Made by a program: the position numbers and the translations under genes
Notes under the pieces: model-generated
Seen by the model: the letters and a program-made list of their open reading frames with translations, nothing else
Databases searched by the model: none
What the model was told of the DNA's origin: nothing
From: a virus
DNA: 39,185 bases
Strand: one strand, 5' to 3'
Virus record (IMG/VR): IMGVR_UViG_3300048586_000183
Location: 1 to 39,185 of that record
Shown here: positions 4,792 through 30,432 of the stretch, in pieces
Layout: each line of letters opens with the position of its first letter
How positions within the stretch are numbered: the stretch's first letter is position 1

Positions 4792-4844
4792 ATGGCGGTC
4801 TTCCCGGGCCGGCGACTGCCCGAGCTCCCGCTCGAGCGACGAGC

Positions 4845-5267: not shown

Positions 5268-5277
5268 GAGCTCGACG

Positions 5278-5670
5278 CTACGGGTTCCGGGCGCGGCAGA
5301 CGCGGAGGAACGCGGCCGGGTCCTTCCGTGCTTGCCGGTTCAGGTCCTCGAACGCTTCGACGTCGGACTTGATCGCGGCGAACTCGTCGACCGCCTCGAC
5401 GAACGCCGGCGACTCGAGCTCCCCTCGAGCGACGAGCTCGAGGACGATCTTCTCCTTCTCCCTCGAGCGCTCGGCCGGAGCGTCGACGTACTCGAGCCGG
5501 AAGCCGGTCAGACAGCGGGAGACCTCGTCGCTCTGCTCCTGCGCGGTCTTCGCCGCGGCGTCCTTCTCGCTCGCGCGCCACTGCGCCAGCGCCGACGAGA
5601 CGCCGGCGAGGATGACGAACGCGAGCACGACGTAGAGCGCGATCCGCGCCCGGGTGCTACTCGTGGGCAT
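5278..5670 (-). CDS. Single-pass membrane protein of the lysis cassette, 130 aa
   Basis: The start MPTSSTRARIALYVV at 5670 follows GAGGAAGGACCTCCCT. A longer in-frame start at 5796 would overlap the neighbour heavily and encode an implausible basic segment. Residues 9-29 form one membrane helix with a basic N-terminal flank, giving an N-in, C-out topology. The outer part (about 100 residues) is charged and helical, with two cysteines (Cys52, Cys126) that could pair outside the cell. It lies between two other membrane proteins downstream of the amidase. A spanin-like or lysis-regulator role is possible; I do not recognise a family. Confidence 0.7.
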   Translation of the reverse strand: MPTSSTRARIALYVVLAFVILAGVSSALAQWRASEKDAAAKTAQEQSDEVSRCLTGFRLEYVDAPAERSREKEKIVLELVARGELESPAFVEAVDEFAAIKSDVEAFEDLNRQARKDPAAFLRVCRARNP

Positions 5671-5938
5671 AGGGAGGTCCTTCCTCTTCGGTCGTGATCC
5701 CTCGGAGCCCGAGGAGGTACCGAAGGTGAGCTTCGCGCCCCTCGGCTGCCTGCCGCCGGGTCCGCTCCTGATCGGCGGTCCGCTCGGCCGCTTCACGCTT
5801 CGCCCGCTCCTCCGCGAGCTCGCGGCGGTAGAGCTCGACGAAGTCCCGTTGGAACCAGCGGAAGAGGAGGACGACGACCCAGACGCCCGCGAAGGTTCCG
5901 AGCAGAGTCAGGACGGGCCCGACCGGCGAGACGTCCAC
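5657..5938 (-). CDS. Small membrane protein with coiled coil, 93 aa
   Basis: The GTG start at 5938 lies three bases after the upstream stop. Residues about 8-26 (VLTLLGTFAGVWVVVLLF) form one membrane helix. Residues about 30-75 are a highly charged Glu/Arg coiled coil. This layout is common among small phage lysis accessory proteins and type III-like holin candidates. Function is inferred from position between the amidase and the r1t-like holin. Confidence 0.7.
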   Translation of the reverse strand: MDVSPVGPVLTLLGTFAGVWVVVLLFRWFQRDFVELYRRELAEERAKREAAERTADQERTRRQAAEGREAHLRYLLGLRGITTEEEGPPYAHE

Positions 5939-5941
5939 GGC

Positions 5942-6352
5942 CTACCGCCGGAGCGGCTGAAGTGCGTCCGCCGCCGTGAGGATGAGCGCGGCGAGGATGC
6001 CGGCGAGCCAGACGATCCCCCAGCGGACGAACGCAGAGAGCTCGTCTCGGAAGTCGAGGACCTCCGAGCCGATCACGAGGAGCGAGAGCGCCCGGCCCCA
6101 AGCGCAGAGCGTCAGGAGGACGAGCCACGTCCAGCGGAGCGCCTCGACGCGCCACTCGAACGCGTAGACGACGCCGGCGACGGTCGCGAGCACGAAGAGC
6201 GGGCGAGCGTCGAGACCACGGAGACCGAGGAGCAGAGGTCCGTCCGGGCCGAAGTCAGCGTCCGCCGCTTGGGAGAGGTGACCGGCGACGACGAGCGTCG
6301 CGAAGCGCGCGATCCATCCCGCCGTCCGCCCGGTCGCCCAACGGGCGCGCAC
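5942..6352 (-). CDS. Multi-pass membrane protein, putative holin, 136 aa
   Basis: The gene uses GTG and starts three bases after the amidase stop. It has about three to four hydrophobic segments (around residues 15-27, 51-66, 75-92 and 108-127) and a short basic tail ending ALQPLRR. The position directly after the amidase is the usual holin position in actinophages. With the r1t-like protein further on, this phage would have two holin candidates, one of which may be a pinholin or antiholin. Confidence 0.65.
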   Translation of the reverse strand: MRARWATGRTAGWIARFATLVVAGHLSQAADADFGPDGPLLLGLRGLDARPLFVLATVAGVVYAFEWRVEALRWTWLVLLTLCAWGRALSLLVIGSEVLDFRDELSAFVRWGIVWLAGILAALILTAADALQPLRR

Positions 6353-6355
6353 GCC

Positions 6356-7198
6356 CTAGTCCTTCGCGTCGGGTCCGCCGACCGGGTCGTGCTTGTGCGC
6401 GAGCTCGCGAAGCTGCCCCAGCGACTTCGGCTTCTCGACGCCGATCACGGTCAGCCCGACCGCGACGAGCCACCCGCGGAGGGAGCCGTAGTGCTTCCGT
6501 CCCTCGTCGACGTCGACCATGATCCCGCCGGCGAGGTTGTTCAGCCTCTCGTCGATCTGATCGAAGCGCTCTCGAGTCGCGTCGTCCATCGTGGTCTCCT
6601 CCGTGTTGGGCCCGGGCATCCCGAGCAGATCGTGAACGAGCTCGGCGTACCGAGCGAGGAAGCGCTCCCACGGGAAGCCCGCTCCCGGATCGGAGCGCCG
6701 GCCCGGGTCGAGCTCGGCGTGCGTGACGAAGCCCGGGACTCGCGCTCGAGCCTGCGCCGCCGTGATCCGGCGAGCCGGGATGACGATTCCGTTCCGGGCA
6801 TGCAACCAGCGCGCGTACCGTGCCGCGGCCTGCGCCGCCTGCTCGACGGCTCCGGCCCGCCACGCCGGCGGAGCGAACGGCCAGACGTCCGCCCGGGTCG
6901 CGACGGAGAGCCCGTACGAGTGGTGGTTCGTCCCGGTCCCGTCGTGCCACGCGGCGTCCTCGTAGCGAACGAGGTTGATCGAGGAGTCCGAGTCGACGAG
7001 GTCGTGATACGAGCCCGGCGTCGTGCGGATCGTCTCGTACCGTGCGACCGCCTCGGCTCCGCCGTCGAAGGCGACCTCGTCGGGCGTGTTCTCCGCCGTG
7101 TGCACGACGACGACGCCGGACGGCTCCTCCCGCCGCGGAGACGTGTAGCCCCTCGAGACCGGGTTCGGGTGGAGCCGGAGGTACGCGTCGGTCGCCAT
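6356..7198 (-). CDS. Endolysin, N-acetylmuramoyl-L-alanine amidase (amidase_2/PGRP fold)
   Basis: This enzyme cleaves the amide bond between N-acetylmuramic acid and L-alanine in peptidoglycan. The zinc ligands of the amidase_2 family are visible: His33 in VVVHTAE, His160 in FVTHAELDPGRRSDPG and Asp170. The acidic and aromatic residues of the active site lie near 55-64 (YETIRTTPGSYH). The catalytic domain ends near residue 190. A coiled segment (residues 205-225) and a C-terminal region without a recognised wall-binding repeat follow. The four membrane proteins downstream complete the lysis module. A TACGGT box 8 nt upstream of the ATG and a palindrome after the previous gene suggest its own promoter. 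Confidence 0.9.
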   Translation of the reverse strand: MATDAYLRLHPNPVSRGYTSPRREEPSGVVVVHTAENTPDEVAFDGGAEAVARYETIRTTPGSYHDLVDSDSSINLVRYEDAAWHDGTGTNHHSYGLSVATRADVWPFAPPAWRAGAVEQAAQAAARYARWLHARNGIVIPARRITAAQARARVPGFVTHAELDPGRRSDPGAGFPWERFLARYAELVHDLLGMPGPNTEETTMDDATRERFDQIDERLNNLAGGIMVDVDEGRKHYGSLRGWLVAVGLTVIGVEKPKSLGQLRELAHKHDPVGGPDAKD

Positions 7199-7206
7199 GC
7201 CCGACG

Positions 7207-7212
7207 ACCGTA
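7207..7212 (-). promoter_or_regulatory. Putative -10 box for a near-leaderless lysin transcript
   Basis: TACGGT on the minus strand ends 8 nt before the amidase ATG, in the context GCTACGGTCGTCGGGC-ATG. No Shine-Dalgarno sequence lies between it and the start. This fits actinobacterial leaderless transcripts, where a TANNNT box sits about 7 nt before the start codon. Confidence 0.5.
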
Positions 7213-7214
7213 GC

Positions 7215-7240
7215 GTTCCTCTTCGACGTCGACGAGGAAC
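7215..7240. terminator. 26-bp near-perfect palindrome between tail gene and lysin
   Basis: GTTCCTC (7215-7221) pairs with GAGGAAC (7234-7240). Between them TCGACGTCGA (7223-7232) is itself palindromic; one mismatch (7222/7233) breaks the arms. It begins directly after the stop codon of the upstream gene and ends two bases before the TACGGT box. It could be a terminator for the tail operon or an operator for the lysin promoter. Confidence 0.55.
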
Positions 7241-7918
7241 CTAGAGGTCCTCGGCTTCGGGCCCGACGCGCTCGAGGAGCATCTGAACGGCGATTCCGGT
7301 CGCCGTGTCGATCGCCGCGCCGCCGCCGTTCGTGACCACGGCGACCTGAAGGTCGAAGACGTCGCCCGCTGCCCGGTCGCCGGCTGCGTCGAGCGGGACG
7401 CCGTTCACCAGCACGTCGTAGGCGGGACGAAACGCGCCGAGCGCCGCGAACGATGCGACTTCGATGGTCAGCGGGCACGGCTGCGCCACGAAGAATCGAG
7501 CATCGTTCGGCGTGAACGGGTCGCCGTCGTCGCCGTAGTCCGGCGGGCTCGCCGGGTCGTGTGCGATCAGGTAGACGACCACGTCGTCCGGGAGCGGCTC
7601 GCCGCTCCCGGACACCGCGGCGACGAGGTAGCGGAGCGCGTAGACGCCGACCGGGATACCTGCGACCTCGGTCGCGGAGCCGACGACGTCGCCCGCGTTG
7701 TACGACGTGCTCTCCACCAGCCCGGAGAGGAACGCCTGACCTCTCAGGAGCTCGACGGCCGGACGCCGGAGCTCGCCCCGATCGAGCACGGCGAGCTCGT
7801 TCACGACGCCCTCGCCTCCGCCGTGCACCTTCACGCCCTGGAAGTGTCGCCCGTCGACCTCGTCGGTCGCGAGCTCGGAGGTCGTGGTCGTCGGAACTTC
7901 GATGCTCGAAGCGGTCAT
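7241..7918 (-). CDS. Putative tail fibre or receptor-binding accessory protein, 225 aa
   Basis: This is the last structural gene before the lysin. The N-terminus TTTTSELATDEVDGRHFQGVKV resembles the start of many siphovirus tail-tip proteins that carry DGRHFQxVK-like repeats. The rest is beta-rich with Gly/Ala/Asp loops. It has no catalytic motif. The ATG at 7918 has no Shine-Dalgarno sequence but has a TACGGT box 7 nt upstream. A role at the tail tip is inferred from position and composition. Confidence 0.65.
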   Translation of the reverse strand: MTASSIEVPTTTTSELATDEVDGRHFQGVKVHGGGEGVVNELAVLDRGELRRPAVELLRGQAFLSGLVESTSYNAGDVVGSATEVAGIPVGVYALRYLVAAVSGSGEPLPDDVVVYLIAHDPASPPDYGDDGDPFTPNDARFFVAQPCPLTIEVASFAALGAFRPAYDVLVNGVPLDAAGDRAAGDVFDLQVAVVTNGGGAAIDTATGIAVQMLLERVGPEAEDL

Positions 7919-7925
7919 GGCCGCG

Positions 7926-7931
7926 ACCGTA
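7926..7931 (-). promoter_or_regulatory. Putative -10 box for a leaderless tail-protein transcript
   Basis: TACGGT lies exactly 7 nt before the ATG at 7918, in the context GCTACGGTCGCGGCC-ATG. It shares GCTACGGTCG with the box before the amidase gene. There is no ribosome-binding sequence between box and start. Confidence 0.5.
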
Positions 7932-7937
7932 GCGTCC

Positions 7938-8447
7938 CTACCCCTCGAAAGCGACGGACCGGATCGGCTGCACGAACAGAGCGCCGATCGCCCGGATCGG
8001 GTTCGAGCCCGGGACGCCCGGGCTCGACTGAGACGTTCCTCGAGCGTAGAAGCGGACCTTCTTCGTCCCGGACGTGCGCGCCAGCACGAAGCCAGCGGCC
8101 TGCCACGCCGACGTGAGCGGGCTTCCGGTCGTGATCCCGCCGGCGACGACGTTCGTCGCCTCGAACGGAGCCTCGAACGGGACGCCGGCCGAGACGAGGA
8201 GCTCGCCGTCCGCGAGGAACGATCCGAGGAACTCGATCTTCGAGAAGCCGGCCGGGAGCGTCAGCCGACCGGCGAAGACGTTCGAGCCGTCGGGCGGTAG
8301 CTCGAGGTTCCACGCCCACGCGTCGACGAGCGAGCCGTTCTCCGCCGCCGGGATGCGCTCGAGGACGTCGAGCCGGTCTCCGAGGTCTCGAAGGTCGGTC
8401 ACCGCGTCCGGCGTCGAGAAGATGCTCCGGGAGCCTCGAGCGGTCAC
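7938..8447 (-). CDS. Putative minor tail protein, 169 aa
   Basis: The GTG start overlaps the stop of the large minor tail protein gene (GTGA). A short helix (VTDLRDLGDRLDVLERI, about residues 16-32) may trimerise. A beta-rich C-terminal domain (residues about 42-169) follows, with FAGRLTLPAGFSKIEFLGSF and VRFYARGTSQSSPG. The short N-terminal coil plus beta-sandwich layout is typical of small trimeric tail-tip proteins. No family is recognised. Confidence 0.65.
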   Translation of the reverse strand: MTARGSRSIFSTPDAVTDLRDLGDRLDVLERIPAAENGSLVDAWAWNLELPPDGSNVFAGRLTLPAGFSKIEFLGSFLADGELLVSAGVPFEAPFEATNVVAGGITTGSPLTSAWQAAGFVLARTSGTKKVRFYARGTSQSSPGVPGSNPIRAIGALFVQPIRSVAFEG

Positions 8448-10159
8448 GTCGTCTCCGTGTTGAGGGTGAGAACCATCGTCTCCGTCTTCGGGTCGATCGA
8501 GAGCCGCACGATCCGGAAGACGGCGTCGACCTGAACGTAGCCGTCGTCGATCACGACGCGGACGAGGTCTCCGACGTCGAGGAGCTCGATCAGCGCGCCC
8601 GCGCCGCCGTACGTCGTGACCTCGAGCACGACGGCCGGACGCTTCCGGACCTCGAGCTCGTCCGCGGCGAAGTCGTCGAGGTCTCCGATCGTGAGGTTCG
8701 AGGGAGCGTCGACGAGGTCCTCGAGCACCAGCCCGTCGAGCGCCGCCGGGTCGATCGCTCCGCCCTCCTCACGGTCGGGCCCGTCCCCTTGTGCCCGGGT
8801 GACGACCGACGTCGCGCTCGAGCCGACCTCCCGCCCGCGCCGGTAGCTCGAGAGGTTCCCGCCGTCCTCCGGCCGGCCGAGCCGGAGCACGACGTCGTCG
8901 GAGCGGTCGACGCCCTTCCGCGGGTAGTGCGTCCGGAACGTCCTCGAGCGCTCGTCGACGTCGACCGAGAAGTCGAAGCCGTCCGGGAGCGTGCCGAGCT
9001 CGGTCACCGCGTCCGCGATCCACTGGTGGTCCGCGTGCTGCCACGCCCGCCTCCGGAGGACGCCCGTCGGAGGAGTGTCGGTCCCGACGTTGAGCGAGGA
9101 CTTCCCTCGTCCCGTCTGCGCGTAGCGGACGACCGTCGCCGCGAGCTCCGTCTGATCGGTCGGCGTGAAGCCCGCGCCCGTCGACTCCATGAGCACGGAG
9201 ACCGCGGCGTCCCAGACGATCCATCCGGCCGGCTGGTAGAGCCGGACCTCGACCTCGCCGTCCTCGTTCGGCGGGACGATGATCGAGGTCTCGAGCCGCA
9301 CCCACTCGCCGCGCGGCGAGTCGTTGTCGACGGCTGCCGCGTTCTGCACGGTGAACTCGCCGCCCACGCGCCGCCCGACGTAGAGCCCGAGCCCGAGCGC
9401 CGCCGGCCCGATCCAGCCGTCCCCGATCCAGTACCACGCGGCGACGGTGATCCTCTGCCCGGGCGGGAACGAGGTCCGGTAGCTGAAGCGGCTCCGGAGG
9501 TACGCGTTCTGCCCGGCGATGCCGGAGTCGAGCGAGACCGCCTTCGTCCCGGAGAGCGGAGCCGGGAGCCCGTGCCCGCCCGGCTTCGTCGCCGTCGTCC
9601 AGTGACGAGAGCGAGCTCCTCCGACCCGAGTCCATCCCGGGATCGAAGCGTTCAGCACGCCCGACGCCGCGCCGGTCTCGAAGTCGCCGTTCGTGAGGAA
9701 GTTCCTCCGGTCCGCCGTCCCGAAGAAGCGCTTCCGGAAGTACCACCACGGGCCGCGCCCGGTGAACGAGACCTTCGGGTCGGCCGAGCTCGCATCGTCT
9801 CCGACGACCGGCCCCCACGCCATGACGACGCCCTTCCGGAGCACCTGCGCCTCGCCGGCGAGCTCGACCGCCAGAGTCGCCGGGTCGTACTTCGGGCTCG
9901 AGAAGGAGAACTCGTCCTCGCCGTTCAGCGTGCGGACGACGGGCCCGACGTTCGCGTGCTCGAGCTCCTCGAGGACGTTCCCGGAGCGGTCGACGACGCG
10001 CACGATCCACGCCGGGTCCTCCGCCGGCCACGTCTCCGGCCGCGCTCGAGGAGCGCCAGCGGAGAAGCCGAGCTCGAGCTCGAGGTCGACGCCGGCGGTC
10101 ACGACGTCGACCGGCTCGCCGGTCCCGCCTACGGCCGGAGGGAGGAGCGGGTAGGGCAC
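8444..10159 (-). CDS. Minor tail protein with inserted carbohydrate-binding-like domain, 571 aa
   Basis: This is a tail-tip structural protein, probably related to the siphovirus gp37-like baseplate proteins of actinophages. The N-terminal part (residues about 48-150: AWIVRVVDRSGNVLEELEHA, then GEDEFSFSSPKYDP) and the C-terminal part (about 370-571, ending RIVRLSIDPKTETMVLTLNTE) flank an inserted beta-sandwich at about 153-320. That insert begins FLTNGDFETGAASG and continues IPGWTRVGG, the usual opening of CBM4/9-like carbohydrate-binding modules. It may bind cell-wall glycans. Start is GTG, three bases after the upstream stop. Confidence 0.8.
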   Translation of the reverse strand: MPYPLLPPAVGGTGEPVDVVTAGVDLELELGFSAGAPRARPETWPAEDPAWIVRVVDRSGNVLEELEHANVGPVVRTLNGEDEFSFSSPKYDPATLAVELAGEAQVLRKGVVMAWGPVVGDDASSADPKVSFTGRGPWWYFRKRFFGTADRRNFLTNGDFETGAASGVLNASIPGWTRVGGARSRHWTTATKPGGHGLPAPLSGTKAVSLDSGIAGQNAYLRSRFSYRTSFPPGQRITVAAWYWIGDGWIGPAALGLGLYVGRRVGGEFTVQNAAAVDNDSPRGEWVRLETSIIVPPNEDGEVEVRLYQPAGWIVWDAAVSVLMESTGAGFTPTDQTELAATVVRYAQTGRGKSSLNVGTDTPPTGVLRRRAWQHADHQWIADAVTELGTLPDGFDFSVDVDERSRTFRTHYPRKGVDRSDDVVLRLGRPEDGGNLSSYRRGREVGSSATSVVTRAQGDGPDREEGGAIDPAALDGLVLEDLVDAPSNLTIGDLDDFAADELEVRKRPAVVLEVTTYGGAGALIELLDVGDLVRVVIDDGYVQVDAVFRIVRLSIDPKTETMVLTLNTETT

Positions 10160-10162
10160 GGC

Positions 10163-10597
10163 CTACTCCGGAGCGCGGAGACGAACGAGCCCGGCCGCGT
10201 CATAGCTCACGGTGAAGTCCGTCCCCTCGGTCGCGGCGTCGACGTCGTCGAGGTAGAGCGCCGGCCAGGAGTCCGAGTCGTCCGTGACGAAGACGAAGAC
10301 GATCGCTCCGCCGACCGACGGCCCGCCGAGCCCGGGCCCGAGGTCCGGGAAGACCGTCGCGTCGGCGTGCCAGCGGACGAGGAGCTCGTCGTCGTCGCGC
10401 TCGGTCGTCCGGCCGGTGATCGGCTGCCGGGCGTAGCCGTCCGTCGCGAGCTCGCCGTCGACCGCCGAGACGAAGTCGAGCGTCGGGTCCTCGGAGAAGC
10501 CGCCCGCCGCGTCGAGGAGGAGGAGCCGGACGTCCGCCGTCGTCCAGTCGAAGCCGGAGCCGAGAGCGGTCTTCAGCGCTTGGAAGGCGAAGGACAC
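10163..10597 (-). CDS. Putative minor tail protein, 144 aa
   Basis: The protein has a strand-rich body with the pattern DVRLLLLDAAGGFSEDPTLDFVSAV ... DGYARQPITGR ... GGAIVFVFV, which recurs in small structural proteins of actinophage tail tips. The GTG start at 10597 lacks a Shine-Dalgarno sequence and is preceded by TAGGCT at 7 nt, though the TAG of that box is also the stop of the upstream gene. Position is between the distal tail protein and the large minor tail protein. Confidence 0.7.
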   Translation of the reverse strand: MSFAFQALKTALGSGFDWTTADVRLLLLDAAGGFSEDPTLDFVSAVDGELATDGYARQPITGRTTERDDDELLVRWHADATVFPDLGPGLGGPSVGGAIVFVFVTDDSDSWPALYLDDVDAATEGTDFTVSYDAAGLVRLRAPE

Positions 10598-10607
10598 GCG
10601 GGCGAGC

Positions 10608-11063
10608 CTAGGAGCCCGAGCCGTCCGGGAAGTAGACCGTCGGGTCGTTCGCTTGGAACGTGAGGAGCGCTCGAGCCTCGCCGGACTTGAGCATGGTCAG
10701 GTCCTCGACGAGACCTCGAGGTCGGCCGACGACGTAGAAGCGCCCCCAGCCCGGGAGCATCATCCAGAGCTCGAGGTCCTCGCTCCTCGAGTTGCGCCAC
10801 GCCTCGAGGAGCTCCGAGAAGTCGAGCATGACGTCTTCGGGCCCGTGCCCGCCCCAGCCGACCGGGAAGGTCAGCACGCGAGACGCGAGGAGGTCCCGGC
10901 CGGAGTACGAGCCGTCGCTCTGCTCGAGGTCGAAGTCGCTCGGCTTCACGGTCAGCCCGAAGCCGGCCCACGGCCCGTCCCAATGGAAGCGAGTCCCGGG
11001 CCCGTGAAGGAGCCCGCGGAGCTCGAGGTGGTACTCGTCGACGACGAGGTCTCCGGCTGCCAC
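10608..11063 (-). CDS. Putative distal tail (Dit-like) minor tail protein, 151 aa
   Basis: The gene lies directly after the tape measure gene, the usual position of the distal tail protein; the GTG start shares one base with the tape measure stop (TAGTG). The pattern LASRVLTFPVGWGG, LDFSELLEAWRNSR and WGRFYVVGRPRGLVED is the usual core of these proteins in actinophages. It would form the ring joining the tail tube to the tip. At 151 aa it is short, lacking the C-terminal extension seen in many relatives. Confidence 0.75.
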   Translation of the reverse strand: MAAGDLVVDEYHLELRGLLHGPGTRFHWDGPWAGFGLTVKPSDFDLEQSDGSYSGRDLLASRVLTFPVGWGGHGPEDVMLDFSELLEAWRNSRSEDLELWMMLPGWGRFYVVGRPRGLVEDLTMLKSGEARALLTFQANDPTVYFPDGSGS

Positions 11064-13543: not shown

Positions 13544-14397
13544 CTACTCCTCCTCCTTCTTCGGCGTGTACCTGATGACGACGTTCTTCGACGGGCCGAA
13601 GACCTCGAGGAGCTCCTCGGTCGTCGACTGCCGCTTCCGCTGAGTCTGCCCGGCGGTCCCGGCCGGCCGAGGGACCTTGATCGCGTCGGGCGGACGCCGG
13701 CCCTTCTTCGAGTGGATCGAGAAGAGGAGCCGGTGCCCCTCGAAGACCGTCTCGATCAGGGTCGCGAGGAGCTCCTCGACGTTGTGCCACTGCCCGGGCC
13801 GGATCGAGCCGCCGATCGCCCGGATCGTCTGGGACTCGTCCGGGAGGTTCCGCACGAGGAGCTCGAAGCGCCGGAGCGTGATCGGCTCCGGCCCCCAGAT
13901 CGCGAGCGGGAGCGAAGGGACCGCCGGCTCGTAGTACCTCGTCCAGTCAGCCTCGAGCGTCGTCCAGTGTTCGAGAACGAAGACGCCGAGGCTTAGGAGT
14001 TTGGGAGCTCGATCCCGTACGCGCCGAGCGCGCCGTCGAGGAGGACCTCGAGGTCCTCGAACGAGAGCCCGTGCCCCTTCAGCTTCGGCCACGCCTCCCC
14101 GAAGAGCGAGCTCGCCGCTTCCTCGAGGGAGCCGAGCGCCTCGAGGTTCACGCGGTCGTCGTCGTCCTCGCCGGCGACGGCGAAGAGCGCCCCGAACGCG
14201 GTCAGCGCGCCGACCGGGAGCTCCGGAGCGAGGTCGTACCGCTCGCCGCCGAGGATCACGTGCGGGTCCTCGACCGAAGTCCCGGCCTCCTCCGCCGCCT
14301 TCCGCTTCGCCTCGGCTCGAGCGGCCCGGGCTGCGTCGAGGTCGATCCTCTTCGACGCCGCCGGCGGGACCTCGACGACCTCCGCCGCCTCGCTCAC
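13544..14397 (-). CDS. Tail assembly chaperone gpGT, made by -1 frameshift (284 aa)
   Basis: This is the extended chaperone, read from the gpG start at 14397, shifting -1 at CCCAAAC (14005-13999) and continuing to 13544. The downstream part (residues about 134-284) begins LLSLGVFVLEHWTTLEADW and has no start codon of its own. It ends in a basic segment (QTQRKRQST, then RYTPKKEEE). In lambda-type siphoviruses gpG and gpGT coat the tape measure during tail assembly and are absent from the virion. The order major tail protein, gpG/gpGT, tape measure is exactly the expected one. Confidence 0.85.
13993..14397 (-). CDS. Tail assembly chaperone gpG, 134 aa
   Basis: This is the unshifted product. 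GTG at 14397 overlaps the major tail protein stop (GTGA). The protein begins with a charged helix (DLDAARAARAEAKRKAAEE) and a YDLAPELPVGALTAFGAL motif usual for actinophage chaperones, which normally have RFELPDELPL in this place. It ends GIELPNS, with the slippery heptamer spanning the P-N codons. Confidence 0.85.
   Translation of the reverse strand: MSEAAEVVEVPPAASKRIDLDAARAARAEAKRKAAEEAGTSVEDPHVILGGERYDLAPELPVGALTAFGALFAVAGEDDDDRVNLEALGSLEEAASSLFGEAWPKLKGHGLSFEDLEVLLDGALGAYGIELPNS
13999..14005 (-). promoter_or_regulatory. Programmed -1 ribosomal frameshift site CCCAAAC
   Basis: The heptamer fits X-XXY-YYZ and is in the right phase: frame 0 reads CTC CCA AAC TCC TAA, and after slipping the ribosome reads CCC AAA CTC CTA AGC. 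The zero-frame stop follows one codon later. The -1 frame is open to 13544 with typical codon use. Confidence 0.85.
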
Positions 14398-14972
14398 GAG
14401 CCGCTCCCCGCGGCCGCGGCGAACGCCGGGTCGTTCGTGTCGAAGTACCACGGGTCCTGACCATCGCGGCCGAGCACCGCGAACGTGATCGGCAGGACGC
14501 CGGCCTCCGTGCGGACGATGTTCGTCTCGACGCCCTCGGAGACCATGCCGGCCGGGAGGACGAGCCGGTAGTCCTTGTCTCCGTCCTCCCACTCGATCCC
14601 GAGCATCGTCTCGCCGGTCTCGGAGGGAGCGGGCGGGACGAAGCGGTACGCCTCCGGAGCGGTCTCGACGACGTCGCCGCCGCCGTAGGCCAGCTTCACG
14701 GTGTCGCCGTTCCACTGCATGAGCCCGAAGGACGCCGTCCCCTCCCGGGACTCGATCACGCGGCGGAGGTCGTAGAACGACTGCCACGCCCGGATCGAGT
14801 TGACGGACTTCCCGTCGTTCCACGTCACGCCGTCCTCGGTCACGTAGCCGAGGTCGATCCAGAACTCCGGGTCGAAGGGATCGTGGATCGAGTCCGGGAG
14901 CGGCGAGCCGATCGGAGCGGAGAAGATCGAGCCGTTCGAGCCGACGACGAGCTCGGAAGCGTTCTTGCCCAT
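14394..14972 (-). CDS. Major tail (tube) protein, 192 aa
   Basis: This is the tail tube subunit, identified by position between tail terminator and chaperones and by its content. The N-terminus (NASELVVGSNGSIFSAPIGSPL) followed by WIDLGYVTEDGVTW matches the phage tail tube family of actinophages, in which a DLGYxSEDGVT motif is near-universal. A beta-rich body follows, and the end is a short Ala/Gly/Ser tail. The ATG has GAAGGACACACCATC upstream. Confidence 0.9.
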   Translation of the reverse strand: MGKNASELVVGSNGSIFSAPIGSPLPDSIHDPFDPEFWIDLGYVTEDGVTWNDGKSVNSIRAWQSFYDLRRVIESREGTASFGLMQWNGDTVKLAYGGGDVVETAPEAYRFVPPAPSETGETMLGIEWEDGDKDYRLVLPAGMVSEGVETNIVRTEAGVLPITFAVLGRDGQDPWYFDTNDPAFAAAAGSGS

Positions 14973-15794: not shown

Positions 15795-16148
15795 TCAGGA
15801 CCTCCGCTCGACGAGGAGCTCGAAGTGGTGCGGGCGACCGCCGCGCCGGCGGACGACGAGCTCCGGCTCGCCCACGACGGAGAAGGTCTCGTCGCCGTCG
15901 TCGACCTCCGAGTAGCCGTCGATCGAGAGCATCGTCCCGCGGTGGCGCGCCGGGATCAGGTAGACGAAGCGCCGCTCCTGCGCGTCCCGGTCGTCTGTCT
16001 GCTCGTCGGCTCCCTCGAGCTCGCGCGCCGCCGGGACGTCGACGTGCTCCGGGCCCGGCCCGAGGACGTCGTCGTTCCGGTCGTCCTTCCCGACGACGAT
16101 CCGGCCGCGCACGGTCACGCGCCGGTCGAGGAGCCGGCGGAAGGTCAC
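15795..16148 (-). CDS. Putative head-tail stopper (head closure) protein, 117 aa
   Basis: The GTG start at 16148 overlaps the upstream stop (GTGA); a longer in-frame start would lie inside the connector gene. It begins FRRLLDRRVTVRGRIVVGKDDRNDDVLG, with the strand pattern of SPP1 gp16/HK97 gp7-type head closure proteins. The middle (RRFVYLIPARHRGTMLSIDGYSEV) and the C-terminus (HHFELLVERR) are the recurring elements in actinophage versions. Confidence 0.75.
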   Translation of the reverse strand: MTFRRLLDRRVTVRGRIVVGKDDRNDDVLGPGPEHVDVPAARELEGADEQTDDRDAQERRFVYLIPARHRGTMLSIDGYSEVDDGDETFSVVGEPELVVRRRGGRPHHFELLVERRS

Positions 16149-16753
16149 GAGCCGCTCCCGGAGCCGTAGCTCGAGGACGGGCGCGGGCGAGGAGCCGAGC
16201 CGACGACGAACGGCGCGAGCGCCAGCCGGTCCGGAGCGAAGAGCCCGACGCCGGCCTCGGCTCCCGCCATCGTGTACGAGTACCGCCCGAGCGTCTCGGA
16301 GCGGAGCCCGCCTCCGGGCGACTCGAGCGAGCGAGCGGCGACGGAGAGCGCGACGCCCTTCGGGACGTCCGGGATCGGGTCCCAGCCGTGCGAGTAGACG
16401 ACGCGGTAGTGCCGGAAGCGCCGAGCCCAGACGCCGGACCGCCGGCGGAGGATGCCGGTCTCCGACCACTCCCAGACGGGCGAGCTCGAGGACGGGCCCG
16501 GGAGCTCCGTCCGCGCGCCGCCGGGTCCCTCCTCGACGAGCGAGACGTCGAGGACCGGGAGCTCCGGGAGGAGGAGGACCGCCGTCCCGCGCCCGTCGAG
16601 CTCGAGCTCGTCGTCGGTGCGCGGCGTGAACTCCTGCCCCGTGTACGCCCGGACCTCGCCGGACGCGAGCTCGAGGTAGAGCCGGCCGGACGCCGGGTCG
16701 ACGGAGTCCTCGAGGAACGTCTCGAGCTCCTCGAGGGTTGCGAGCGGCTCCAC
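16145..16753 (-). CDS. Head-tail adaptor (connector), 202 aa
   Basis: This is the HK97 gp6/SPP1 gp15-like adaptor that binds the portal. It begins LATLEELETFLEDSVDPASGRLYLELASGEVRAYTGQEF, the typical helical start. RHYRVVYSHGWDPIPDVPKGVALSVAARSL then matches the Y-xHGW...P..v...v...aar family pattern almost exactly. The C-terminus is Ser/Gly/Pro-rich. GTG start, with the upstream stop overlapping by one base. Confidence 0.85.
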   Translation of the reverse strand: MEPLATLEELETFLEDSVDPASGRLYLELASGEVRAYTGQEFTPRTDDELELDGRGTAVLLLPELPVLDVSLVEEGPGGARTELPGPSSSSPVWEWSETGILRRRSGVWARRFRHYRVVYSHGWDPIPDVPKGVALSVAARSLESPGGGLRSETLGRYSYTMAGAEAGVGLFAPDRLALAPFVVGSAPRPRPSSSYGSGSGS

Positions 16754-17214
16754 TACTCCGCGGCCTTCTCGCCGGCCGGACGCCGACGACGCGAGCCGGC
16801 GGTCGGCTGGTCCCGCTTCTTCTGCCGGGCGGGCGCGCCGGGCTCGGCCGGCTCGAGCGGCTCGTCGGCTCCCTCGGCCGGTGCGCCGGCGGGCTCCGGG
16901 TCGGCCTGCGCCTTCGCTCGAGCTCGAGCGGTCGGACCGCCGGGCGCGAGCGCCCCCTTCGGGACGGCCGGGCGACGGGACGCGCCGGCCGGCGTCGGAG
17001 CGGGAGCGTCGACGTCCTCGAGGAGCCCCATCCTCCGAGCTCGCTCGTCAGAGAGGAGCACGTAGCCCGGGCCCGTCGGGTTCTTGTACCGCTTCTTCTT
17101 CGATCCGGGCATGGTGGAGCTCCTCACTCGCTGGTCGACGGCGACGACGTTCGCCGGCTCGCCCGTGCTGGTGCACGAGCACGAGGTACTCGAGCAGACG
17201 AGACAGCGCTTCAC
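16753..17214 (-). CDS. Small head-module protein with N-terminal Cys motif, translated from an internal start (153 aa)
   Basis: An internal GTG at 17214 is preceded by GAGGAG with a 6-nt gap and begins KRCLVCSSTSCSCTSTGEP. The Cys cluster followed by ANVVAVDQRV is a pattern found in small proteins between capsid and connector in many actinophages. KRYKNPTGPGYVLLSDERARRMGL follows and then a Pro/Ala-rich tail with a basic end (QKKRDQP, then SRRRR). The frame is shared with the upstream glycerophosphotransferase-like domain without any stop, so this protein may be made alone, as a fusion, or both. A second possible start is ATG 17112 (MPGSKKKR). Confidence 0.65.
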   Translation of the reverse strand: MKRCLVCSSTSCSCTSTGEPANVVAVDQRVRSSTMPGSKKKRYKNPTGPGYVLLSDERARRMGLLEDVDAPAPTPAGASRRPAVPKGALAPGGPTARARAKAQADPEPAGAPAEGADEPLEPAEPGAPARQKKRDQPTAGSRRRRPAGEKAAE

Positions 17215-18201
17215 GCCGAGCTCCTCGAGAACCGCGTTCGCTGCTCGTGCTGCGCTCGTGCCATCGCGGACAGGGTAGACCCGCGCCACGGCGCGCTCCC
17301 GGGACCGGCGGACGGGCGACGGGTCCTCGAGCGCCCGGAGGATGCCGGCGACGAGGTGCTCCGGGTGGTCGACCTGAACGCCGACGTTCGCGTCCTTCCA
17401 GAAGCGAAGCCCGTGCTCGACGCCCCGGCGGTAGCGCGGCGAGTTGAGCACGACGACGGGCCGGTCGAGCGCGGCGAACTCGAAGAGCGTCGACGAGTTG
17501 TCGACGGCGTAGACGTGCGCCCGGCGGACGACCTCCTCGAAGTCCTCGACGACTTCGAGCCCGAGCTCGGAGAAGACCGGGCCCGCTTCCGGGAGGAGCC
17601 GCGGGTGAGCGTGCGCGAGGAGCTCGACGCCGGCGCGCTCGAGCTCGGCCCGCGCCGACTCGAGGACCGGGACGAAGTGGTCGTACGCCGTGTCGGTCTC
17701 CGGCGCGACCTTGCATCGCCAATGGAACGAGACGACGGCGACCGGCGGACCAGCGGGCGGGTCCGGGTGCCAGCCGTCGAGCTTCGGGCATCCGACGACC
17801 GCGTTCGGCGTGCGCGGGTAGCGGGCGCGGTTCCGCTTCGCCGCGTGCATGTTCGGGACGACGAAGAGGACGACGTTCTCCCGGCCGAGCCCGCCGGCGT
17901 ACGACGGATGCCGGCTCGAGTACGTCTGTCCGGCTCCGTGCTCCGCGAGGACGATCGGCCGGCGACGGTCCTCCTTCGTCACGCGCCGGAGGTCTCCGAT
18001 CGCCGCGACGTAGGTCAGCACGCCGTGCTCCGGGACGCCGACGACGGGCTCGAGCCCCCGGGCCCGGGCGTGAGCGACGAGGTCCTCGTCCCGGACGTAG
18101 AAGCCGGCCCGGTACTCGTCCGGCAGGTCGTGCCAGACGGGCGCGAGGTGGTCGAGGAAGTGCCCCTCGCCGGCGAAGAAGGCGACGCGATCAGTAACCA
18201 T
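16753..18201 (-). CDS. TagF-like glycerophosphotransferase in frame with a small head protein (482 aa)
   Basis: Residues 1-329 resemble CDP-glycerol glycerophosphotransferases (TagB/TagF, GT-B-like fold), which transfer glycerol phosphate in teichoic-acid-type polymers. Visible are the first Rossmann half (VAFFAGEGHFLDHLAPVW), AEHGAGQTY with His88, VVGCPKLDGW, AHAHPRL, and the family hallmark VDNSSTLFEFAALDRPVVV (about 233-251). VYPVRDGTSAARAANAVLEEL ends the domain. From residue 330 the frame continues into a Cys-rich head-module protein. The ATG at 18201 overlaps the glycosyltransferase gene by 11 bases. It may decorate virion proteins or the host wall; donor and acceptor are unknown. Whether the full fusion is made is unknown. 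Confidence 0.75.
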   Translation of the reverse strand: MVTDRVAFFAGEGHFLDHLAPVWHDLPDEYRAGFYVRDEDLVAHARARGLEPVVGVPEHGVLTYVAAIGDLRRVTKEDRRRPIVLAEHGAGQTYSSRHPSYAGGLGRENVVLFVVPNMHAAKRNRARYPRTPNAVVGCPKLDGWHPDPPAGPPVAVVSFHWRCKVAPETDTAYDHFVPVLESARAELERAGVELLAHAHPRLLPEAGPVFSELGLEVVEDFEEVVRRAHVYAVDNSSTLFEFAALDRPVVVLNSPRYRRGVEHGLRFWKDANVGVQVDHPEHLVAGILRALEDPSPVRRSRERAVARVYPVRDGTSAARAANAVLEELGVKRCLVCSSTSCSCTSTGEPANVVAVDQRVRSSTMPGSKKKRYKNPTGPGYVLLSDERARRMGLLEDVDAPAPTPAGASRRPAVPKGALAPGGPTARARAKAQADPEPAGAPAEGADEPLEPAEPGAPARQKKRDQPTAGSRRRRPAGEKAAE

Positions 18202-19546
18202 GCCCGGCCCGCTCCTCTCCGATGTGCTCGACCGCCGGCGGACTCGAGCTCGAGTCCCAGAAGGCGAAGCGCCGGTGCGGCTGGTCCCGGAGGAGCTCGT
18301 CCCCGAAGACCTTCTCCGAGCCCTTCACGCCCGGCCACGGACGAGCGAGGAGCTCGGCCCGGAAGAGCGTCGGGTTCACGGAGAAGAAGACCTCGTGCTC
18401 GACGTGCGGGACCGGCTCGTCGACGTCGACGAACGAGCCCGGGAAGACCTCGAGGAGCCCGCCCGCCCGCCGCTCTCGCGGGTACCACGGCTGCCGCCGG
18501 AGCACGACTTGAGCGAGCTCGCCGCGCGCCTCGAGGAGCTCGGCCATCCCCTCGAGCGGGACGTCTCCGAGCACGAAGTCCTCCTCGAGCCAGAAGATCA
18601 GCGGGAGCCCGGTCTCGGCCGCGGCCCGCCACGCCGAAGCCATCGCGCCGGCGTAGCCCGCTCGGCTCGTCGTGACCATCGTCGGCGTGATCCTCGAGCC
18701 TCGATCGAGCTCCTCGAGGAGCCAGCGCCGGAACTCGAGGTCGTCCGAGTCGTCGTGAACGATCAGGTCCTCGACGAGCTCGTGCTCGAGGAGCCGGAAG
18801 AGCCCCGGGAGCGTCCGCTGGAGGTACGAGCGCCGCCCGTTCGCCATGAGGACGACCGCCGTCCGGGCCCGGGCCCGCTTCGCCTCGAGCCGGAGCTCCT
18901 CGAGCTCGATCGAGCTCGCCCGCTTGTACCGAGCGCCGAGCTCCTCCGCCGCGCGGTACTCCGCGCGCCGAGGATCACGAGCCGGGCTCCGCGGGTGCCA
19001 GAGGTGCCACGCCTCGCCCGGGACGCGGAGCTCCTCGCCGCCGAGCTCGTTCGCCTGCCGACGGAACGCCACGTCCTCCCAGCCCCAGCCGGCGAAGCGC
19101 TCGTCGAAGCCGCCCACGGCGTCCCAGAGCTCCCGAGGGACGGCGAGAGCCGACGACGGCGACCGCTCCTTCGTCCACTTCGTCCAGCGCCCCCAATACC
19201 CGCGGAAGCCCTCGAGGACCGCCTCGGTCCCGGCGAAGGTCAGCGCCCGGAGGTCCTCGAACGCGTAGACGAGCCGGCCGGTCTCCCGTGCTAGCTCGAG
19301 CGCGTCCCGGACTTGGCGCGGGTCGACGTGCGTATCGCCGTCGAGGATCAGCGCCACGTCCCACGGAGGAGCCTCACGTGCGGCTCGGTTCAGCGCGGCC
19401 GACCTCGAGAACGGGCCGAGCTCGTGGTGCCCCTCGACCACGGGACAGTCCGGGAGCTCGAGCTCGAGTCGGCCGCGGAGCCAGCGCCAGACGCGGTCGC
19501 GGTGAGGGTCGCCAGCGCGACGAGGGACGAGGATCGGTGTCGCCAT
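18191..19546 (-). CDS. Two-domain glycosyltransferase (two GT-A folds), 451 aa
   Basis: Domain 1 (residues about 1-215) is GT2-like with the metal-binding Asp-Gly-Asp (69-71, ILDGDTHVDP) and the GGFDERFAGWGWEDVAF motif (145-161) seen in galactosyltransferase/chondroitin-type enzymes. Domain 2 (about 227-451) starts RTAVVLMANGRRSYLQRTLP and has FWLEEDF (319-324) as a DXD-like site, then QVVLRRQPW, VNPTLFR and a C-terminal VEHIGEERAGHGY. This second domain matches a glycosyltransferase common in actinophages. The gene directly follows the capsid gene, a hairpin lies between them, and it has its own TACGCT box 7 nt before the ATG. The likely target is a phage structural protein or a host envelope sugar. 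Confidence 0.85.
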   Translation of the reverse strand: MATPILVPRRAGDPHRDRVWRWLRGRLELELPDCPVVEGHHELGPFSRSAALNRAAREAPPWDVALILDGDTHVDPRQVRDALELARETGRLVYAFEDLRALTFAGTEAVLEGFRGYWGRWTKWTKERSPSSALAVPRELWDAVGGFDERFAGWGWEDVAFRRQANELGGEELRVPGEAWHLWHPRSPARDPRRAEYRAAEELGARYKRASSIELEELRLEAKRARARTAVVLMANGRRSYLQRTLPGLFRLLEHELVEDLIVHDDSDDLEFRRWLLEELDRGSRITPTMVTTSRAGYAGAMASAWRAAAETGLPLIFWLEEDFVLGDVPLEGMAELLEARGELAQVVLRRQPWYPRERRAGGLLEVFPGSFVDVDEPVPHVEHEVFFSVNPTLFRAELLARPWPGVKGSEKVFGDELLRDQPHRRFAFWDSSSSPPAVEHIGEERAGHGY

Positions 19547-19553
19547 GCCGGCG

Positions 19554-19559
19554 AGCGTA
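19554..19559 (-). promoter_or_regulatory. Putative -10 box for the glycan cassette
   Basis: TACGCT lies 7 nt before the ATG at 19546 (CCTACGCTCGCCGGC-ATG) and about 13 bases after the hairpin that follows the capsid gene. No Shine-Dalgarno sequence is present. This suggests a separate leaderless transcript for the two enzymes. Confidence 0.5.
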
Positions 19560-19572
19560 GGTCGAGACGCGA

Positions 19573-19601
19573 ACGGGCCCGGAGGATCACTCCGGGCCCG
19601 T
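19573..19601 (-). terminator. Hairpin after the major capsid gene
   Basis: ACGGGCCCGGAG (19573-19584) pairs perfectly with CTCCGGGCCCGT (19590-19601) around a 5-nt loop, giving a 12-bp GC-rich stem. It begins 41 bases after the capsid stop. A terminator after this gene is usual in siphoviruses. No T tract follows. Confidence 0.75.
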
Positions 19602-19642
19602 CCTGCTCTTCGACTCCCGGGCGGATCACGCCCGGGCTCGGA

Positions 19643-20962
19643 CTAGCTGCCCGAGTTGAGGTCGATCGCCGCGAACGCGAGCGGGCGGATCACGCCGAAC
19701 GCGGCGCGCATCTCGGCCAGGATCGCGACGAGGTTCCGCACGAAGAAGTCCTCGTGCGAGTCGCTCACGGTGAGCGCGGCCTGCTCGCGATCCCAGAGGA
19801 CCGCCATCTTCCAGTTGGCGAGCATGCCGGTTCCGACCGGGACCGCCTCCGACTCGAGCCGCGGGAGACCCCAGAGCGTCTGCACGCCGGTCGACGCCGG
19901 CCCGCCGAAGAGGAAGGCTCCACTGTTCTCGGAGCCTCCCGAGCCGTCCCGCATGAGGTCGAAGCGCTCGTTGTCCTCCGGGTTCAGGACGTAGGCGGTC
20001 GGAGCCGTGCGCCCGTTCACGCGGATGGCGGTCTTCGCCTTCCGGGTCGTGACGAGGAGGTCCGTCTCGAACGGGATGCTCTGGATGCCATCGACCTCGA
20101 GGATGCCCTCGAAGTTCTCGCCGTTCCCGTCGCCCGAGACGATCTGGTCCTCGAGCTCCTCGGCCAGCCCGTAGCGGAGGAACTCGTCGATCAGGGTCCG
20201 GATCTGCGCGGCGTCCGAGAGCGCCCGCTTCGTCGCCGGGAGCCAGTGAGCCAGGGTCTTGACGTTCGTCGTCACCTTCTCGAGCTCCATGCTCGACTCC
20301 GGCTTCCGGCCGGTGACCTGCGGCGAGGTCGCGCCCGTCTGCGAAGCGCCCCGAGCCTCCGGGACGGGAGCCGCGTTGTTCGTGAAGCCGACCACGCGGG
20401 CATAGCTCACGGTGTCGCCGTCGGTCTGGCCGCGGGTGACGAGGTCCGCGATCGTAAGCGGACGCTGGAACTGCCCGAGCCCGTCGAGGAGCCCGAGCCA
20501 CTGCGGGTTCACCAGCGCGCCGGCCGCGCCGTCGCCGTCGGTCACGCCGCCGGCGAGGATGTCCTTCGCGGAGAACGCGACGGGCGGGCTGCTGATGCCC
20601 TTCGTCGAGTCCGGGATGATGCCGGTCGGAGCGATGCGCTCGAGCCAGGACTTCACGTCGGCCGACTCGGTGAAGCGCTCGCCCCACGTCTTGCCCTTGC
20701 CGGGCCGGACGCCGCCGGCCTTCGCGAGCTCGCCCACGGGCTGCCCGAGGACGTTCAGGTCCTCGAGGAGCTTCGCGTCGCCGTCGAGCTCGAGGATCGC
20801 GCCGTGCGACTTGCGCGCCTCGTCGATGTGCGCCTTGATCTGCGTCCGCTCCTCGCCGGAGAGGTTGCGTCCCTCGGCCTCGGCCTTCGCGGCGATGGTC
20901 CGAGCGCTCTCGAGCTCGGCGGTCTTGGCGAGGAGGAGCTCGTCGCGGGTCTTCGTGGTCAT
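19643..20962 (-). CDS. HK97-fold major capsid protein, 439 aa
   Basis: This is the coat protein. The N-terminal about 125 residues are helical, charged and Glu/Lys-rich (LLLAKTAELESARTIAAKAEAE), like the delta scaffold domain that the prohead protease removes. The HK97 core follows: LTIADLVTRGQTDGDTVSYARV, PESSMELEKVTTNVKTLAHWLPATKRALSD, EELEDQIVSGDGNGENFEGIL, AYVLNPEDNERFDLMRD, LWGLPRLESEAVPVGTGMLANW and VRNLVAILAEMRAAFGVIRPLAFAAI, the standard order for actinophage capsids. CGGGAGGG precedes the ATG. Protease and portal genes lie upstream and a hairpin lies downstream. Confidence 0.97.
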   Translation of the reverse strand: MTTKTRDELLLAKTAELESARTIAAKAEAEGRNLSGEERTQIKAHIDEARKSHGAILELDGDAKLLEDLNVLGQPVGELAKAGGVRPGKGKTWGERFTESADVKSWLERIAPTGIIPDSTKGISSPPVAFSAKDILAGGVTDGDGAAGALVNPQWLGLLDGLGQFQRPLTIADLVTRGQTDGDTVSYARVVGFTNNAAPVPEARGASQTGATSPQVTGRKPESSMELEKVTTNVKTLAHWLPATKRALSDAAQIRTLIDEFLRYGLAEELEDQIVSGDGNGENFEGILEVDGIQSIPFETDLLVTTRKAKTAIRVNGRTAPTAYVLNPEDNERFDLMRDGSGGSENSGAFLFGGPASTGVQTLWGLPRLESEAVPVGTGMLANWKMAVLWDREQAALTVSDSHEDFFVRNLVAILAEMRAAFGVIRPLAFAAIDLNSGS

Positions 20963-29662: not shown

Positions 29663-29998
29663 CTACTCCGCCCGCTTCACGACGAGCCGCGCGCCTTCCG
29701 GGTGCTCCCGCTGCGCGTGGTCGAGCCCGACCGCCCGCGCCGCCTTCCGCTTCGGGATCACGAGCGGCTCATCGACCGACGGCCCGAGCGTCCCGTGCTC
29801 CGAGCACTTCACGCCCCAGCCCGTGAGCCGGCCGACGTGCATCGTCTCGACGGTGACGACCGCCTTCTCCGGAGCCGGCCGGAGCGTCTGCCGGACCTTC
29901 GTCTTCAGCGACCGCTCCCGGCCGGTCGCCTCGTCGAGCTCGTCGAGGACGTGCCGCGGGTTCGCCGCGACGACGAGGTCGTGCTCCGCCGCGGTCAT
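29663..29998 (-). CDS. Hypothetical protein upstream of terminase, 111 aa
   Basis: ATG 29998 overlaps the previous stop (ATGA). A helical first half (NPRHVLDELDEATGRERSLKTKVRQTLRP) is followed by a strand-rich second half with KCSEHGTLGPSVDEPLVIPKRKAARAVGLDHAQREH. The single Cys-x-x-His (CSEH) could bind metal with HAQREH, but this is weak. No family recognised. Confidence 0.65.
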   Translation of the reverse strand: MTAAEHDLVVAANPRHVLDELDEATGRERSLKTKVRQTLRPAPEKAVVTVETMHVGRLTGWGVKCSEHGTLGPSVDEPLVIPKRKAARAVGLDHAQREHPEGARLVVKRAE

Positions 29999-30432
29999 CG
30001 GAACTCGATCCGGGTCTTCCCGCCATGCCCGTGCACGGCGTCGACCGCCTCGAGCCCGCGGTCGTGGAAGACGACGGAGGTCGGCCACTCCGAGAGCCAG
30101 CGGAGCGCCACGGTCCCGTCCGAGAAGACGACGCCCTCGGCCACGGTGCCCGATCCGGAGACGCCGGTCACGTCCTCGTCGCGCTCGAGCGTGAAGAGCC
30201 GAGCTCCGTCGATCGGCTTCAGCGCCGCGTAGCGCCGTCGCTCCTCGAGCTCCTCGAGTTGCCGGCCGAGGTCATCGCCGCCGGCCGAGCTCGAGCGCGG
30301 CCACGTGTCGACGCCGTCCCAATGGTCGGTGAGGACGTCGTGCCCGAGCGGGCGACAGCACGGAGAGCCGCCGTCCGGGTTCGGGTGCGAGCAGAGGTTC
30401 GAGTCGGTCTGGGTGTCGCCTGAAGTGGTCAT
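29995..30432 (-). CDS. Hypothetical protein with N-terminal Cys/His cluster, 145 aa
   Basis: The N-terminus (CSHPNPDGGSPCCRPLGHDVLTDHWDG) has three Cys and several His that resemble a zinc knuckle. A short charged helix follows (LGRQLEELEERRRY), and the C-terminal half is beta-rich (GTVAEGVVFSDGTVALRWLSEWPTSVVFHD). ATG 30432 overlaps the HNH stop and lies 6 nt after TACGAT. Function unknown. Confidence 0.65.
   Translation of the reverse strand: MTTSGDTQTDSNLCSHPNPDGGSPCCRPLGHDVLTDHWDGVDTWPRSSSAGGDDLGRQLEELEERRRYAALKPIDGARLFTLERDEDVTGVSGSGTVAEGVVFSDGTVALRWLSEWPTSVVFHDRGLEAVDAVHGHGGKTRIEFR

Follow-up and report, generated by a model that had tools for sequence, protein, structure and literature searches.

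A putative virion-decoration cassette in the head gene module of an uncultured phage, and the serine-ended capsid tails that accompany such cassettes

Glycosylated virions are already known (PMC12363180, PMC11256854, PMC12619734). Those of phages Che8 and Corndog are reported to carry glycans in accounts that cite Freeman et al. 2023 (PMC12363180, PMC11256854). Another account, citing the same work, places mycobacteriophage glycans on the C-terminal ends of the subunits that form the capsid and the tail tube (PMC12619734). Transferases encoded by phages have, of course, been given other roles as well. Prevention of superinfection has been proposed for glycosyltransferases in other actinophages (PMC10202952). 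In Bacillus phage SP-15, a CDP-glycerol glycerophosphotransferase lies within a DNA-modification cluster, where DNA hypermodification has been proposed (PMC5977210).

The DNA considered here, called the window, is the entire IMG/VR virus record IMGVR_UViG_3300048586_000183, which holds 39,185 bases (71% GC) from an uncultured virus. Its minus strand carries genes for portal, protease, capsid, connector, major tail and tape measure proteins, recognised by Pfam and PHROG matches. By this gene content, the genome is of the siphovirus type. The protease and portal genes lie upstream of the capsid gene. The nearest relatives of the capsid and portal proteins come from phages of Arthrobacter, Gordonia and Mycobacterium (40-47% identity), and thus an actinobacterium is the likely host.

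Two relatives without a cassette, Arthrobacter phage Jamun and Gordonia phage Reyja, have a simple gene order: capsid, one small gene, head-tail adaptor. In the window, two enzyme genes are inserted between the capsid gene and the small head gene. A sequence-only reading of this DNA had placed an enzyme pair between the capsid gene (ending at 19643) and a connector gene (starting at 16753), with coordinates that prove to be correct. The features of the region are these:

19643-20962, minus strand: major capsid protein (PF05065, E 1.7e-35), C-terminus ...AIDLNSGS
19616-19636, minus strand: second perfect hairpin, 8/8 bp, with the same TGATC loop (sequence folding)
19573-19601, minus strand: perfect hairpin that separates the capsid gene from the enzyme genes, 12-bp arms 19573-19584 and 19590-19601, 5-nt loop
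19554-19559, minus strand: TACGCT, a box of the -10 type (TANNNT), set 7 nt ahead of the glycosyltransferase ATG
18191-19546, minus strand: two-domain GT-A glycosyltransferase, 451 amino acids (Pfam, PHROG and phage-protein matches)
17212-18201, minus strand: TagF-like GT-B transferase domain, 330 amino acids, residues 1-330 of its reading frame (motifs, Pfam, model)
16753-17211, minus strand: C-terminal extension of the same 482-amino-acid reading frame, made of a linker (17113-17211) and a small head protein (16753-17112)
17110-17112, minus strand: possible internal ATG start, in the same frame, with GAGGAG before it
16145-16753, minus strand: head-tail adaptor (phrog_442, E 1.6e-31), C-terminus ...SSSYGSGSGS
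14394-14972, minus strand: major tail protein, C-terminus ...AAAGSGS
10608-11063, minus strand: tail protein directly 3' of the tape measure gene, C-terminus ...FPDGSGS, a further candidate acceptor

The 12-bp hairpin behind the capsid gene, which had been noted from sequence before, is real. Its arms pair at 12/12 positions, and the region folds with z = -5.4, matched by 0/200 shuffles. No run of T follows the two hairpins. The 12-bp element is possibly an attenuator or a signal for the end of a transcript. The TACGCT box reported 7 nt before the first enzyme gene likewise holds up, as one instance of a pattern common to six genes. A TANNNT box stands 6-8 nt before the start in 6 of 49 same-strand genes, and all six are without a Shine-Dalgarno sequence. 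About 0.0026 such boxes are expected per gene (binomial p 3.5e-9). The box is therefore above chance, and it resembles the -10 box of leaderless genes. No ribosome site was found before the glycosyltransferase gene. TACGCT is thus a candidate for the -10 box of a leaderless promoter, and the natural reading is that the enzyme and connector genes share a separate transcript. Such a leaderless transcript would begin at the cassette, past the hairpin. This, in turn, would mean that the enzymes are made apart from the abundant capsid protein.

The first enzyme is itself composite. Its N-terminal half matches Glyco_transf_7C (E 4.8e-6) and phrog_1721 (E 2.2e-18), with residues 1-228 matching Che8 gp109 (E 8e-11), Firecracker gp35 (E 9e-11) and their relatives. 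Its C-terminal half matches GT2 (E 2.2e-5) and phrog_3047 (E 3.6e-16), with residues 229-451 matching Octobien14 gp118 and A3Wally gp179. Since the counterparts of the two halves are separate genes in other phages, the window protein is a fusion. Sequence comparison gave no match between it and Che8 gp110. Two-domain glycosyltransferases of about 515 amino acids, like that of the window, are present in the relative loci L024 and L051. In Firecracker, of the Corndog group, homologous glycosyltransferase genes lie between portal and protease.

The second gene (16753-18201, minus strand, 482 amino acids) scores 23.7 bits with PF04464, the family of CDP-glycerol glycerophosphotransferases, where the cut-off is 22.1, and it matches only the C-terminal half of the domain. 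NCBIfam gave no match for the protein. The motif, which had been called clear, is therefore real, but weaker than that word implies. The domain carries EHG (H88), PKLD, HPR (H199), DNSS (D234) and E241, and H88, H199-P200, D234 and S237 are invariant across 52 TagF-like sequences. A model built from the alignment of these 52 (pLDDT 95.8) has a GT-B fold, with Foldseek TM scores of 0.69 to TagF (3l7j) and 0.58-0.70 to UDP-GlcNAc 2-epimerases. Comparison of structures, a check proposed with the sequence-only reading, thus finds the likeness to TagF but finds the epimerases about equally near. Despite the likeness in fold, the enzyme does not group with UDP-GlcNAc 2-epimerases in sequence (profile E 0.9, no Pfam match); the best PDB sequence matches of its family, by profiles and alignment, are the TagF-like Cps3D and TarL. 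With folds that tie epimerases and TagF, and sequence profiles that favour Cps3D and TarL, a cytidine-linked donor is no more than somewhat favoured. A limited tblastn search found no cytidylyltransferase in the window; CDP-glycerol may be supplied by the host.

It is tempting to regard the 482-amino-acid reading frame as one enzyme. This view was rejected; residues about 364-482 (the last ~119) match a head gene that stands alone between capsid and adaptor in relatives. The TagF-like enzyme is therefore fused to a head protein. The cassette-free relative L088, for example, encodes the small head protein by itself (MATKRYPNP...). This portion of the frame had been overlooked in the sequence-only reading. 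An artefact of sequencing was also considered as the origin of the fusion, and rejected because the join is conserved: in-frame joins of the same kind are found in L092 and in L013, whose enzyme is 57% identical to that of the window. The Cys-rich linker (KRCLVC...) is likewise similar in L013. The internal ATG at 17112 may also yield the small head protein in free form.

How widespread are such genes? Queries with one or two sequences found no relatives of the TagF-like protein in viral or genome contigs. After the alignment was enlarged with a distant protein from phage P1312, a profile search reached the family, and found it in 69 IMG/VR loci, 53 of them non-redundant. A recognised head or tail gene lies within the fetched stretch in 45 of the 53, a capsid gene lies within six genes of the TagF-like gene in 31, and another gene of the glycosyltransferase type lies within five genes in 36. 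In 15 loci, a glycosyltransferase akin to the window's two-domain enzyme lies within five genes. Thus, the survey of gene neighbourhoods that had been suggested places TagF-like genes mostly in head modules. Phage Rctr41k, whose gene 32 product is 37% identical to the TagF-like protein, also has its gene there.

The company kept by these genes is varied. It includes GT2 and GT4 enzymes, PF11316 proteins, FkbM and other methyltransferases, epimerases, an N-acetyl sugar amidotransferase (TIGR03573, in L027), a NeuD-type acetyltransferase, a PseB-like dehydratase and cytidylyltransferase-like genes. In locus L028, about ten sugar genes separate the connector genes. The genes of L051 run capsid, TagF-like, TagD-like, glycosyltransferase, two-domain glycosyltransferase. 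The best PDB match of the TagD-like protein there is a glycerol-3-phosphate cytidylyltransferase (1coz, E 1e-11), with an NCBIfam TagD match far under the cut-off (50 vs 165 bits). The cytidylyltransferase-like genes of L028 and L037, two of the three such neighbours, score better as heptose(-phosphate) adenylyltransferases.

The window capsid ends in -AIDLNSGS, and the proposed acceptor tail is encoded at 19646-19657. Across the TagF-like loci, 31 of 35 capsids, from six clusters, end in Ser or Thr, against 164 of 777 other proteins. Because this pattern was noticed after the fact, the rule was tested on capsid relatives fetched separately. Family 1 consisted of 80 loci with relatives of the window capsid. 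With an insert defined by distance to the adaptor, Ser/Thr ends were found in 14/20 capsids against 2/43 without insert (Fisher p 1e-7). When loci with an enzyme-sized gene were compared to those with none, the window and the TagF-like loci being added, the counts were 30/34 and 2/46. In family 2, which has an unrelated capsid and for which the rule was fixed beforehand, they were 25/25 with a cassette and 9/36 without (p 7e-10). Removal of five loci of the discovery set from family 2 leaves 20/20 cassette capsids that end in Ser or Thr. The ends beside cassettes are usually -Gly-Ser. Because the capsids share ancestry, these Fisher values overstate the association; each family offers only about three independent contrasts in which both traits change, and every one of them goes the way the rule predicts (sign test p 0.25 in each family).

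Could such tails be a by-product of ribosome sites that overlap the end of the capsid gene? This was rejected. Where the next gene is more than 25 nt away, the association persists (17/17 vs 2/10 and 14/17 vs 2/17), and the serine codons at capsid ends are mixed, TCN and AGC. In the window, the GS tails of the major tail protein and the adaptor are encoded where the following gene has its ribosome site and start, and are weaker evidence. The capsid tree points the same way as the counts. The sister of the window capsid, L086, has no insert and ends in -AALA; L013, which like the window bears the insert, has as its sister L088, which has no insert and ends in -LTA. Stopper proteins in family 1 follow the capsid trend, with Ser/Thr ends in 9/17 against 0/35. 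The major tail proteins of family 1 gave 3/5 against 12/32, which is not significant.

There are exceptions in both directions. L093, L103, L162 and L018 have an insert and no Ser/Thr end. Nine cassette-free capsids of family 2 end in Ser or Thr, a number that includes any whose cassette lies off the fetched stretch or is of an unrecognised type. Home-made profiles and gene size served to call a cassette present or absent, so that missed cassettes are likely among the controls; genes in the uncultured loci were called with our own script, checked on the window only; and the C-terminal rule pools Ser with Thr. Among named phages, Che8 has GS ends on its capsid (-KTGS) and major tail protein (-SDGS), and on no other of ten structural proteins checked. 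Capsid and tail proteins end in Ser in Octobien14, Babsiella, P1312 and Rctr41k, as does the capsid of Firecracker; the capsid and tail proteins of TM4, Bxb1, Jamun and Reyja do not. Myrna, reported to be glycosylated, is an exception, with a capsid that ends in -LRKA.

These observations are best explained, and quite probably so, if the enzyme pair is a virion-decoration cassette that builds a short glycan on the Ser tails of the phage's own capsid and tail proteins. Here, the fused GT-A enzyme would put sugars on the terminal serine of exposed tails, during or after assembly. The TagF-like enzyme would add a further, terminal group from a cytidine-activated or other nucleotide-activated donor, to give a short O-linked glycan on a C-terminal -Gly-Ser-COOH. 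The acceptors would be the capsid and probably also the major tail protein and some connector or tail proteins. The small head protein in the same frame may hold the TagF-like enzyme at the assembling head, to which the fusion would tether it.

The sequence-only reading had proposed that the phage decorates its capsid or tail with a sugar chain carrying glycerol phosphate. The first part of that proposal stands: a glycosyltransferase of the Che8/Corndog type, a family seated in head modules and the Ser/Thr ends make glycosylation of the virion well supported. The second part is in doubt. The PF04464 match is marginal, the fold is also epimerase-like and the window yielded no cytidylyltransferase; on the other side stands the TagD-like gene of L051. 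Glycerol phosphate on the window virion is possible, though we would sooner bet against it. In nature the decoration may serve protection, adsorption or stability; mimicry of teichoic acid and concealment of antigenic surface, which that reading had also suggested, are conjecture. A bolder reading is offered only tentatively: numerous tailed phages, with capsids of several unrelated families, would mark their capsid and tail proteins with a C-terminal Ser (-Gly-Ser) acceptor tag for head-module transferases, and here and in the TagF-like relatives an enzyme joined to a head protein would put phosphodiester-linked glycerol phosphate, or a similar alditol phosphate, on the virion surface.

Within virion decoration, the TagF-like enzyme might be an ordinary UDP-, GDP- or CMP-sugar transferase that adds no glycerol phosphate. 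This rival is one form of the best explanation, so that our confidence in the two overlaps; we judge its chances to be about even. The Foldseek scores (0.58-0.70 for the epimerases, 0.69 for TagF), the two of three cytidylyltransferase-like neighbours that look like heptose-phosphate adenylyltransferases and the failure of limited tblastn to find a cytidylyltransferase in the window would all suit such an enzyme. However, the best PDB sequence matches of the family are Cps3D and TarL, and the TagD-like gene of L051 lies directly downstream of the TagF-like gene. Further, UDP-GlcNAc 2-epimerases carry GG where TagF-type enzymes have DxSS, and the window enzyme has DxSS. A different doubt concerns the tails, which might be linker-like ends that go with larger head modules or certain lineages and are unrelated to glycosylation. 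Lineage dependence does limit the tail tests, and Ser ends occur as well on some capsids for which no cassette was recognised. Such ends would not, however, be expected to give the same outcome in two unrelated capsid families, to use mixed serine codons, to set both the window and L013 apart from their nearest cassette-free sisters, or to occur in Che8, for which glycans are reported at C-termini. We think this rather unlikely.

Enzymes of the PF04464 family normally make teichoic acids or capsules. The pair might therefore modify the host envelope, acting on teichoic acid or another wall glycan to block superinfection, for example, or to change a receptor; a superinfection role has, after all, been proposed for other actinophage glycosyltransferases (PMC10202952). 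Yet inspection of the sequences revealed no obvious membrane-anchoring segment in either product, most relatives keep the genes within the late head module, a head protein is joined to one of the enzymes, and the capsid tails vary with the presence of the cassette. Action on the envelope is, in light of these points, improbable. Still less probable, to the point of being hard to credit, is hypermodification of phage DNA. It has the SP-15 precedent (PMC5977210), and the window does encode a DNA methyltransferase (32559-34040). But a scan of a portion of the window proteins recognised no base-hypermodifying enzyme, the cassette is not close to the genes for DNA metabolism, and the association with capsid tails would be left unexplained.

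Virion decoration thus remains the preferred reading, and the more valuable result is that Ser-ended capsid tails accompany head-module transferase cassettes in unrelated phages. Capsid or tail proteins that end in Ser, usually -Gly-Ser, beside transferase genes could be used to predict virion glycosylation in uncultured phages, and the rule pinpoints the exact residue for testing. The survey suggests that gene sets for decorating the shell, some with an enzyme of the teichoic acid type, are common in environmental phages. Virion glycosylation would then reach beyond a few mycobacteriophages and take in many kinds of environmental phages, whose enzyme sets vary and include TagF-like, GT2 and GT4 enzymes, methyltransferases and enzymes of sugar-nucleotide metabolism. 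Should the TagF-like step prove to add glycerol phosphate, the particles of such phages would bear a group resembling teichoic acid. We know of no earlier report of a phosphodiester-linked or teichoic-acid-like virion decoration.

The individual parts of the cassette have counterparts elsewhere. With TagF, TarL and Cps3D, the PF04464 CDP-alditol phosphotransferases, the window domain shares the GT-B fold, the HP and DxSS motifs and a marginal Pfam match, and these are its best PDB sequence neighbours. The window domain differs in being a catalytic core of 330 amino acids only, found in phage head modules, and a gene for CDP-alditol supply is seen in only some of its relatives. The SP-15 cluster also joins a gene of the CDP-glycerol glycerophosphotransferase type to glycosyltransferases in a phage, but the substrate proposed there is a DNA base. 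Gene 32 of Rctr41k is TagF-like, lies in a head module and accompanies a capsid that ends in -GS; Thermobifida phage P1312, whose capsid also ends in -GS (-PDGS), encodes a distant TagF-like protein in gene 27. Neither has a two-domain glycosyltransferase beside the TagF-like gene, and in P1312 that gene follows the tail genes and adjoins an O-methyltransferase. The two GT-A families of the window occur together in Microbacterium phage A3Wally (gp179/gp180) and Gordonia phage Octobien14 (gp118/gp120), but there as separate genes, in the opposite order and outside the head module.

A close parallel is the virion glycosylation of Che8 and Corndog. Here, the GT-A enzyme is related (Che8 gp109, Corndog group), the glycosyltransferase genes of Corndog and Firecracker lie among structural genes as they do in the window, and capsid and tail proteins have Ser ends, as do the window capsid (-NSGS) and major tail protein (-AGSGS). 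The window differs in having two glycosyltransferase domains in one protein, the second of them unlike the family of Che8 gp110. To these it adds a TagF-like enzyme, fused to a head protein, in a cassette placed between capsid and adaptor.

Six genes of the window that lack a ribosome site carry TANNNT 6-8 nt upstream of their start codons:

4845-5267 (-), TANNNT-preceded gene
6356-7198 (-), TANNNT-preceded gene
7241-7918 (-), TANNNT-preceded gene
10163-10597 (-), TANNNT-preceded gene
18191-19546 (-), TANNNT-preceded gene, the two-domain GT-A glycosyltransferase
29995-30432 (-), TANNNT-preceded gene

The six boxes are candidate leaderless promoters in this phage. The window also holds a phrog_67 DNA methyltransferase gene (32559-34040, -).

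In the viral loci compared with the window, a family of 547-611 aa proteins is encoded immediately 3' of capsids ending in -GS (L106, L109, L117, L120, L144, L152, L159, L165). Gene context makes this family likely to be transferase-like; the next genes, judged by eye, are methyltransferase-like and sulfotransferase-like. In L013, a 73-aa collagen-like ORF (GPPGPPGPP; 6307-6528) lies directly 3' of the capsid gene, ahead of a methyltransferase and a TagF-like fusion. In L028, about 10 sugar-biosynthesis and transferase genes form an insertion between head-tail connector genes (4565-10967).

In the gene at 5740-7515 of L044, a locus resembling phage Rctr41k, the TagF-like domain is followed by a C-terminal nucleotide-diphospho-sugar transferase domain (PF03407, tested in L044); L070-L074, other Rctr41k-like loci, have TagF-like genes of equal length.

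The rule that capsids beside transferase cassettes end in Ser/Thr, usually -GS, has an exception that counts against it, for Myrna (L249) is reported as glycosylated and its capsid, gp99, ends in -LRKA.
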